Of a stretch of DNA of 64,000 nucleotides, positions 8,155-12,323 are shown in pieces. Made by a program: the position numbers and the translations under genes. The notes under the pieces were generated by a model. It saw only the letters and a program-made list of their open reading frames with translations. It was not told the origin of the DNA and did not search any database. The stretch is from Streptomyces sp. BK208. GTDB taxonomy: Bacteria > Actinomycetota > Actinomycetes > Streptomycetales > Streptomycetaceae. The DNA is taken from positions 1 to 64,000 of the forward strand of contig NZ_SOAV01000016.1 in assembly GCF_004364245.1 (NCBI RefSeq), read 5' to 3'. Numbering within the stretch: the stretch's first letter is position 1; every line of letters starts with the position of its first letter.

Positions 8155-9399
8155 TCACACCCGCTGGGACAGGTCCACGCTCGCGGGCTCGGTGGCCATC
8201 GCGCCCGCCACGACGCGCGACCGGCTGTGCAACCGCAGCGAGGCGGCGACGAAGGCGATCGCGACCAGGGTCATCGCGGCGCCCGCCCAGGCGGTGGCGG
8301 CGTACCCGAAGTCCGCGTCGATCACGGTGCCGCCGAGCCAGGGGCCGCCGGTGTTGCCCAGGTTGAACGCGGCGGTCGTCGTCGCACCGGCGAGGGTGGG
8401 CGCGGCGCCGGCGACGTTGAACATGCGGGCGTTGAGCGCGGGCGCCGTGTAGAACGCGGAGACGCCGAGGAGCAGCGACAGGACGATGACGGCGGCCGGG
8501 CTGGAGGCGAACAGCGCGAGGGCGGCCAGCAGGACCGTCGAGGCGGTGATGCCGGAGAGCAGGACGCCGAACAGGTGCGCGTCGGCGACCCGGCCGCCGA
8601 TCGTCGTGCCGATCAGCGCGCCGACGCCGAACAGCGCGAGGACGGTCGGGACCCAGCCGTCCGCCAGTCCGGCCACGTCGGTGAGCAGCGGCGCGAGATA
8701 GGAGAAGGCGCAGAACACTCCCCCGGCGGCGAGCGCGGTCACGACGATGGACAGCCAGACCTGACGGTCCCGGTAGATGGCCAGCTCGCCCCGCAGCCGG
8801 GGCCGCCGCTCGGGCAGCGGGATGCGGGGGATCAGGGTCACCACGCCGACGAGCGCGACGGCGGACGCGCCGCCCACGGCCCAGAACGCGGACCGCCAGC
8901 CCAGGTGTTCGCCGAGGAACGCGCCCGCGGGGACGCCCAGCACGTTGGCGATGGACAGTCCGCCGATCATCACGGCCATCGCGCGGGCCCGGGCGGTCAC
9001 CGGCACCATGGCGATGGCCACGGCCGCGCCCACGGCCCAGAAGCCGGCGCAGGCGAGCGCGCTGACGACCCGGGAGACGAACAGCACCTCGTAGCTCGTC
9101 GCGAGTGCGCCCGCGACCTGGCCGAGACCGAACACCGTGATCAGCGCGACCAGGGTGGTCTTGCGCGGCAGGCGCAGGGTCGCGACGGCGAGCAGCGGCG
9201 CACCGACCACCATGCCGATCGCGAAGGCCGATATCAGCAGCCCGGCTCGCGGGATCGACACGTCCATGTCGTCGGCGATGGGCGGCAGCAGCCCGGAGAG
9301 CATGAACTCGCTGGTGCCGAGCGCGAAGACGGACAGGCCGAGGATGTAGACGGCCAGCGGCATGCGGCCGGCCGTGGACCGTGGGGAAGAGTCGGGCAT
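8155..9399 (-). CDS. MFS exporter, Cmx/CmrA-like
   Basis: About 414 aa with 12 predicted transmembrane helices. The opening LAVYILGLSVFALGTSEFML and GLLISAFAIGMVVGAPLLA (motif D1 region) are typical of the DHA1 drug-efflux subfamily that includes chloramphenicol exporters Cmx/CmrA and AraJ-like sugar exporters. The start is uncertain: the ATG at 9399 (MPDSSPRS) or at 9432. The gene is divergent from the acetyltransferase-TetR pair and shares a short intergenic region with palindromic GTACG sites. The TetR regulator may therefore control both directions. Substrate unknown; an antibiotic or a sugar-like metabolite is possible. Confidence 0.85.
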   Translation of the reverse strand: MPDSSPRSTAGRMPLAVYILGLSVFALGTSEFMLSGLLPPIADDMDVSIPRAGLLISAFAIGMVVGAPLLAVATLRLPRKTTLVALITVFGLGQVAGALATSYEVLFVSRVVSALACAGFWAVGAAVAIAMVPVTARARAMAVMIGGLSIANVLGVPAGAFLGEHLGWRSAFWAVGGASAVALVGVVTLIPRIPLPERRPRLRGELAIYRDRQVWLSIVVTALAAGGVFCAFSYLAPLLTDVAGLADGWVPTVLALFGVGALIGTTIGGRVADAHLFGVLLSGITASTVLLAALALFASSPAAVIVLSLLLGVSAFYTAPALNARMFNVAGAAPTLAGATTTAAFNLGNTGGPWLGGTVIDADFGYAATAWAGAAMTLVAIAFVAASLRLHSRSRVVAGAMATEPASVDLSQRV

Positions 9400-9502
9400 G
9401 ACAGGTGTCAACGGAGCCCCGCTTCCGGCCATTCCCGCGGCCCGCCCCGTCTCACGATGCGGCTACCGTGCCGACCGCTCCAACCGCGCGACGGACACGA
9501 GT

Positions 9503-12060: not shown

Positions 12061-12142
12061 GGAAGAATCTCCGGGGTGGTGTGCACGGGGACGGCGGGCG
12101 CTGGCGGGGCTGGCGGCGCGGGGAGCGCGTCAGGCCCGGGGC

Positions 12143-12226
12143 TCAGTGGCGACAGAGGCCGTCGTCGACGCACCACGCCGAGTTCGCGAAGAGCGCGAGG
12201 CACAGCAGCGGAGCCGATGCATACAT
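12143..12226 (-). CDS. Leaderless 27-aa Cys-containing leader ORF
   Basis: ATG at 12226 opens a 27-codon frame starting MYASAPLLC and ending WCVDDGLCRH with three Cys codons (TGC, TGC, TGT), 82 nt before the sulfur transporter. TATATT (12239-12234) lies exactly 7 nt before the ATG and there is no Shine-Dalgarno sequence, so the transcript is probably leaderless. A second overlapping frame from the ATG at 12222 reads MHRLRCCASRS with adjacent Cys codons. Leaderless Cys-rich mini-ORFs act as cysteine-responsive attenuators in mycobacteria, and the same role is inferred here. Not seen as a stable protein family. Confidence 0.5.
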   Translation of the reverse strand: MYASAPLLCLALFANSAWCVDDGLCRH

Positions 12227-12233
12227 GCGTGCG

Positions 12234-12239
12234 AATATA
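12234..12239 (-). promoter_or_regulatory. -10 element of the sulfur-transporter leader
   Basis: TATATT on the minus strand (5 of 6 to TATAAT) with 7 nt (CGCACGC) to the ATG at 12226. The -35 region (TGGCAT-like, about 18 nt upstream) is weak. The layout matches leaderless promoters. Confidence 0.5.
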
Positions 12240-12323
12240 CGGAGTGATGCGCTCCGGATGCCATCCCGTCTCGCCATGCGGATGGCGCAGGGCCCGGAGC
12301 CTCTTCCACCAGCGCACGGACGA

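Follow-up and report, generated by a model that had tools for sequence, protein, structure and literature searches.

Leaderless short open reading frames (ORFs) rich in cysteine codons and positioned before sulfur or cysteine genes were reportedly described in mycobacteria by Canestrari et al. in 2020, who are said to have proposed that a stalled ribosome releases the ribosome-binding site (RBS) of the downstream gene. The catalogued profiles NF042933 and NF042936 (Ms5788A/Ms4527A Cys-rich leaders) presumably model these mycobacterial ORFs, judging from their names. Work on the mycobacterial polycysteine leaders is cited in PMC13236596 and PMC9094748. For Streptomyces, a study of S. lividans lists eight leaders in a table, covering Leu, Trp, Ala, Ile, Met and Thr, with no cysteine leader and none at yeeE, and derives TAnnnT as the -10 motif from RNA-seq (PMC8079986). 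The family NF042934, annotated as a cis_reg_atten feature and 'putative leader peptide', comprises short Cys-terminal Streptomyces leaders, some of which precede sulfur or cysteine genes. An earlier note on the DNA investigated here proposed a leaderless Cys-containing attenuator ahead of a sulfur transporter gene and knew of none at this Streptomyces locus; our literature search likewise found neither the peptide motif nor a cysteine leader there.

The locus lies in a stretch of 64,000 nucleotides from Streptomyces sp. BK208, referred to as the window, and its features are collected in Table 1. The leader ORF starts with ATG at 12226-12224, has 27 sense codons including three for cysteine (TGC9, TGC19 and TGT25) and closes with a TGA stop 82 nt ahead of the yeeE GTG, all as the earlier note had placed them. 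The yeeE product is a distant relative of the Spirochaeta thermophila thiosulfate transporter TsuA/YeeE (6leo, 8j4c); its gene follows htpG on the same strand after a gap of 316 nt and is itself followed by a convergent TetR-type gene. Elsewhere in the window, an MFS efflux gene (8155-9432, minus strand) scored above the cut-off of NF033135, the Cmx/CmrA chloramphenicol exporter family.

Table 1. Positions of the leader, yeeE and associated elements within the window.
Feature	Position	Strand	Remarks
yeeE/yedE, Sulf_transp family membrane transporter, 432 aa	10762..12060	(-)	PF04143, E 1.3e-54
yeeE ribosome-binding region GCCGTCCCCGTGCACACCACCCCGGAG, SD GGAG included	12069..12095	(-)	
GC-rich hairpin right after the leader stop, no U-tract	12107..12137	(-)	weak in the window
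Leader ORF, MYASAPLLCLALFANSAWCVDDGLCRH followed by stop	12143..12226	(-)	homologues at the same place in relatives
Codons Leu24-Cys25-Arg26, CTC TGT CGC, holding the candidate sensing codon TGT (12152-12154)	12149..12157	(-)	
Codons 16-23 of the leader, TCGGCGTGGTGCGTCGACGACGGC, with complementarity to the ribosome-binding region of yeeE	12158..12181	(-)	
-10 element TATATT, 7 nt before ATG	12234..12239	(-)	TAnnnT conserved; transcription predicted to begin at the A of ATG or right beside it
CCATCCGCATGGCGAGACGG with GAGAC element, upstream of the leader promoter at constant spacing	12266..12285	(-)	candidate regulator site

We consider it likely that the 27-codon ORF is a cysteine-sensing leader peptide that controls yeeE, given the conservation of the ORF, its leaderless promoter geometry, its adjacency to yeeE, the fixation of a UGU codon and, in one clade, complementarity to the yeeE RBS; we infer that cysteine is the signal and that stalling and RBS release are the steps between signal and importer. 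Because transcription would begin at the leader ATG, a ribosome would load onto the leader immediately. When charged Cys-tRNA is scarce, that ribosome would stall toward the 3' end of the ORF, on the rare UGU codon of Cys25 and, in most clades, on that of Cys19 as well. Within the clade of the window, the stalled ribosome would then disturb codons 16-23 and keep them from pairing with the ribosome-binding region of yeeE, so that the yeeE start is freed, the importer is translated and a sulfur source, probably thiosulfate, is taken up. With sufficient cysteine, the ribosome would run off and the pairing would shut the yeeE start. As judged from the sequence, the leader thus most likely lets the cell turn on the importer when cysteine is short, which would couple a sulfur importer of the YeeE/TsuA type to the supply of cysteine.

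The promoter geometry is found as the earlier note described it, the minus strand reading TATATT-CGCACGC-ATG with no Shine-Dalgarno (SD) sequence before the leader ATG. TAnnnT precedes the start codon in 69/69 aligned leaders, at 7 nt in 63 and at 6 nt in 6, and its spacing predicts that the leader start codon coincides with the transcription start. The motif stands 6-8 nt before only 73 of the 1,174 ATG/GTG codons in the leader upstream regions, and all 69 leaders are among these 73. Within the window, TAnnnT-N7-ATG occurs twice, against 1.02 occurrences expected from shuffles. The window holds 912 ORFs of 10-50 codons starting with ATG or GTG, of which 45 have at least three Cys codons and four have TAnnnT 6-7 nt upstream; the leader is the sole ORF to combine the two traits. 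Judged by composition only, it is therefore moderately unusual, which is suggestive but not proof, and since composition is insufficient, we accept the ORF as real because it is conserved, conservation in relatives being decisive. Two other readings of the same DNA fared differently. An overlapping CysCys frame pointed out in the earlier note is present (MHRLRCC...), but it requires TAT as codon 2, which is found in 6/57 distinct relatives; the frame is not conserved and is incidental. An upstream-extended in-frame ORF of 44 codons (MARR...) was rejected, as it starts before the conserved -10 element, is missing in several clades and overlaps the GAGAC element.

To follow the ORF through relatives, 80 orthologous yeeE loci were fetched, and those with enough upstream DNA (roughly 70) were read alongside the window. 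Nearly all of them carry a leader homologue before yeeE, and a check for close relatives that have lost the frame turned up none. A leader containing VDD could be aligned at the same place before yeeE in 69 loci, the window included. Four loci have no VDD: L047 carries an IDD variant, L076 is described below, and in L037 and L042 no leader was seen upstream of yeeE. The consensus, MSAPARLLCLALFANSAWCVDDGLCRR, corresponds to the type A leaders, while type B leaders read MFGPARxLALALFAATPWSVDDALCRR, with Cys9 and Cys19 missing, and the Actinomadura leader (L075) reads MIGFTTGLRMVLFTMALTCVDDALCRR. The leaderless geometry, the place before the sulfur transporter gene and the conserved Cys codon extend throughout Streptomycetaceae and into Actinomadura, with YeeE upstream regions beyond Streptomyces represented by a thin sample. 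Profile searches of 396 genomes from the phylum and 297 from the family located the leader almost only in Streptomycetaceae. Of 61 Streptomyces genomes, 12 have the leader and the identical 12 have yeeE, in one copy each and adjacent to one another.

The three cysteine codons are not equally retained. Cys25 is present in 55/57 distinct leaders, the other two having TGA at this position, whereas Cys9 and Cys19 have been lost in a whole clade. In the two exceptions (L020 and L029), the change from TGT to a stop gives ...CVDDGL* with CTCTG retained, which may be a sign of decay or of a variant whose sensing takes place at Cys19. The proposal of a leaderless Cys attenuator before a sulfur transporter gene is thus borne out in its geometry, its position and the conservation of Cys25, but a sensor built on three cysteines or a polycysteine tract is not; the candidate for the sensing role is instead the single terminal UGU codon. 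Codon 25 reads TGT in 54 of the 57 distinct leaders, TGC in one and TGA in two, and the preceding codon 24 is CTC in 54/57. The remaining leader cysteines are mostly UGC (Cys19: TGT 6, TGC 41; Cys9: TGT 13, TGC 29), and the yeeE genes themselves use TGT for 5 of their 152 Cys codons and TGC for 147. The excess of TGT at Cys25 over the yeeE Cys codons has a Fisher P of about 1e-42, uncorrected for shared ancestry.

The same pattern recurs in NF042934, where the motif Cys is TGT in 31/31 Streptomyces leaders and the remaining cysteines are TGC in 27 cases and TGT in 3; the 31 are those leaders among L129-L167 whose motif could be located, with a few loci of differing C-terminal spacing left uncounted. 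As the yeeE leaders and NF042934 both fix UGU at the terminal Cys and have no detectable similarity to each other, we tentatively suggest, at somewhat less than even confidence, that the sensing position in actinobacterial cysteine leaders has to be UGU, the rare wobble codon. If so, stalling would depend on slow wobble decoding or on the codon together with its nascent-chain context, and the codon would be a general signature for finding such leaders. The signature is a simple one, with 54/55 here and 31/31 among known leaders, and may account for which cysteine gets read.

The peptide body (L8, L10, L12, F13, A14, W18, V20-D21-D22) is conserved beyond what a pure codon counter would need, which brings in the possibility of an arrest peptide, in which the nascent chain (W18, V20-D21-D22, L24-C25) would arrest translation from within the ribosome tunnel upon a sulfur signal or Cys-tRNA shortage and the codon alone would be insufficient. 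V20, D21, D22 and L24 are invariant in the 57 distinct leaders (27-codon register), pN/pS is approximately 0.28 in close pairs, and the NF042934 leaders likewise retain a non-Cys core, HVDLxRxxSAxC. However, the fixation of TGT over its synonym indicates a constraint at the nucleotide or tRNA level for which a pure peptide sensor has no need, and codon choice is also constrained at L10, A11, A14 and S16. We regard the arrest peptide as possible but unlikely.

How a stalled ribosome would reach yeeE was approached through the pairing between the leader and the yeeE start. The predicted duplex between the leader segment and the yeeE RBS has an energy of -30.7 kcal/mol in the window (z -1.83 vs shuffles), and the mean z is -2.06 over 29 loci of the coelicolor/griseus clade, against 0.14, i.e. 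no excess, in other clades; these helix z values are somewhat optimistic because the scored codons (16-24) were chosen post hoc from an earlier scan, codons 14-22 giving a weaker z. Expected pairs between the leader segment and the start region averaged 8.5 compared to 4.6 in shuffled sequences (15.3 compared to 8.5 in the window), and were near zero in most type B loci. Synonymous recoding of the leader barely shifted the pairing energy (z -0.63), and inspection of the helix by eye revealed little compensatory covariation. In a scan of native against swapped duplexes, the SD gave the strongest cell (z -5.5); as other cells reached +5.5, presumably as a result of phylogeny, the scan is not taken as proof. 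With stalling simulated, the RBS became 4-7 kcal/mol cheaper to open in several relatives, which form part of the clade of the window, whereas the window itself showed no drop; with the usual footprint, a ribosome stalled at codon 25 would leave codons 16-18 free. Base pairing between CUCUG (codons 24-25) and the SD was rejected as a universal mechanism, being predicted in few genomes with a mean change of about 0.3 kcal/mol upon stall release. Because the stalling energetics are flat in the window and other clades are without a pairing excess, we confine RBS masking to a hypothesis at the level of the coelicolor/griseus clade and do not regard it as a demonstrated general mechanism.

Instead of RBS masking, the same sensing step would be compatible with cysteine-dependent transcription attenuation via a hairpin between leader and yeeE. 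Many relatives have such a hairpin after the leader stop, and over 69 loci it exceeds shuffled sequences in stability (mean z -1.07), with z dropping below -3 for several of the relatives. It is weak in the window (z -0.26), though, and lacks a U-tract, and a search for an intrinsic terminator-like site found none; an Rfam search also gave no match. On balance, attenuation of transcription is possible but unlikely as the route of control. The yeeE gene may also be under transcriptional control by other means, as upstream of the leader promoter GAGAY (GAGAC or GAGAT) stands at -46/-45 from the leader start in 57/69 loci, compared to 3.6% of background windows, and in 19 of those 57 it is preceded by GTCTC as an inverted repeat, making it a probable regulator site.

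It is improbable that the product of the ORF functions as a small protein in its own right, a hydrophobic YeeE partner of 27 aa that perhaps uses Cys25 for sulfur handling. Amino-acid conservation, a hydrophobic middle and the strict co-occurrence with yeeE would all suit such a partner, but it would not account for the fixation of TGT, for a clade that has lost Cys9 and Cys19, for the two species truncated before Cys25 or for the HVD-type leader of other sequence at the same site in Pseudonocardia. A chance, untranslated ORF produced by promoter or RNA conservation is highly improbable, since start, stop and reading frame are conserved across clades with the low pN/pS given above, even though Cys-containing short ORFs are plentiful in GC-rich DNA.

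Returning to the cysteine-sensing leader that we favor, the mycobacterial polycysteine ORFs are leaderless, as is predicted for the yeeE leader, resemble it in having Cys codons near the end and a sulfur or cysteine gene downstream, and differ in genus and target; the yeeE leader has no polycysteine tract and no sequence match to them. The S. lividans attenuators (trpL, leuL, ilvL and metL) share with it the genus, the TAnnnT -10 element and the leaderless start predicted for the yeeE leader (PMC8079986). Further parallels exist with NF042934, several members of which have TAnnnT near the start and which shares the terminal TGT Cys, a trait outside the NCBI definition; some of its leaders close with (A/G)LCRR*, L161 for example with ...GALCRR*, in the codons CTC TGT CGC CGC TGA that also finish many yeeE leaders, and some precede genes that we named by eye from their translations as sulfite reductase or CysO-CysM. 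In Pseudonocardia nigra (L076), a yeeE orthologue (71% identity) is preceded by a leaderless-like HVD-type peptide, VVLTRRLHVDHCTQRAAACRP, at -91 to -25 from yeeE, with a GTG start, TAACCT upstream and TGT as its last Cys codon; it matches NF042934 weakly, at 13.9 bits against the curated cut-off of 27 bits. The yeeE leader, in contrast, lacks the HVDLxRxxSAxC core and occurs once per genome, whereas NF042934 leaders number 3-13 in all 41 Streptomyces genomes searched. The NF042934, NF042933 and NF042936 profiles gave no match for the yeeE leader, and NF042934 did not match the window, type A, type B or Actinomadura leaders even at an E value of 10. We conclude from these comparisons that the yeeE leader probably represents a new leader family, outside the tested catalogued families by sequence and working like the leaderless cysteine attenuators, which would add a conserved and so far unlisted family to cysteine control in Streptomyces.
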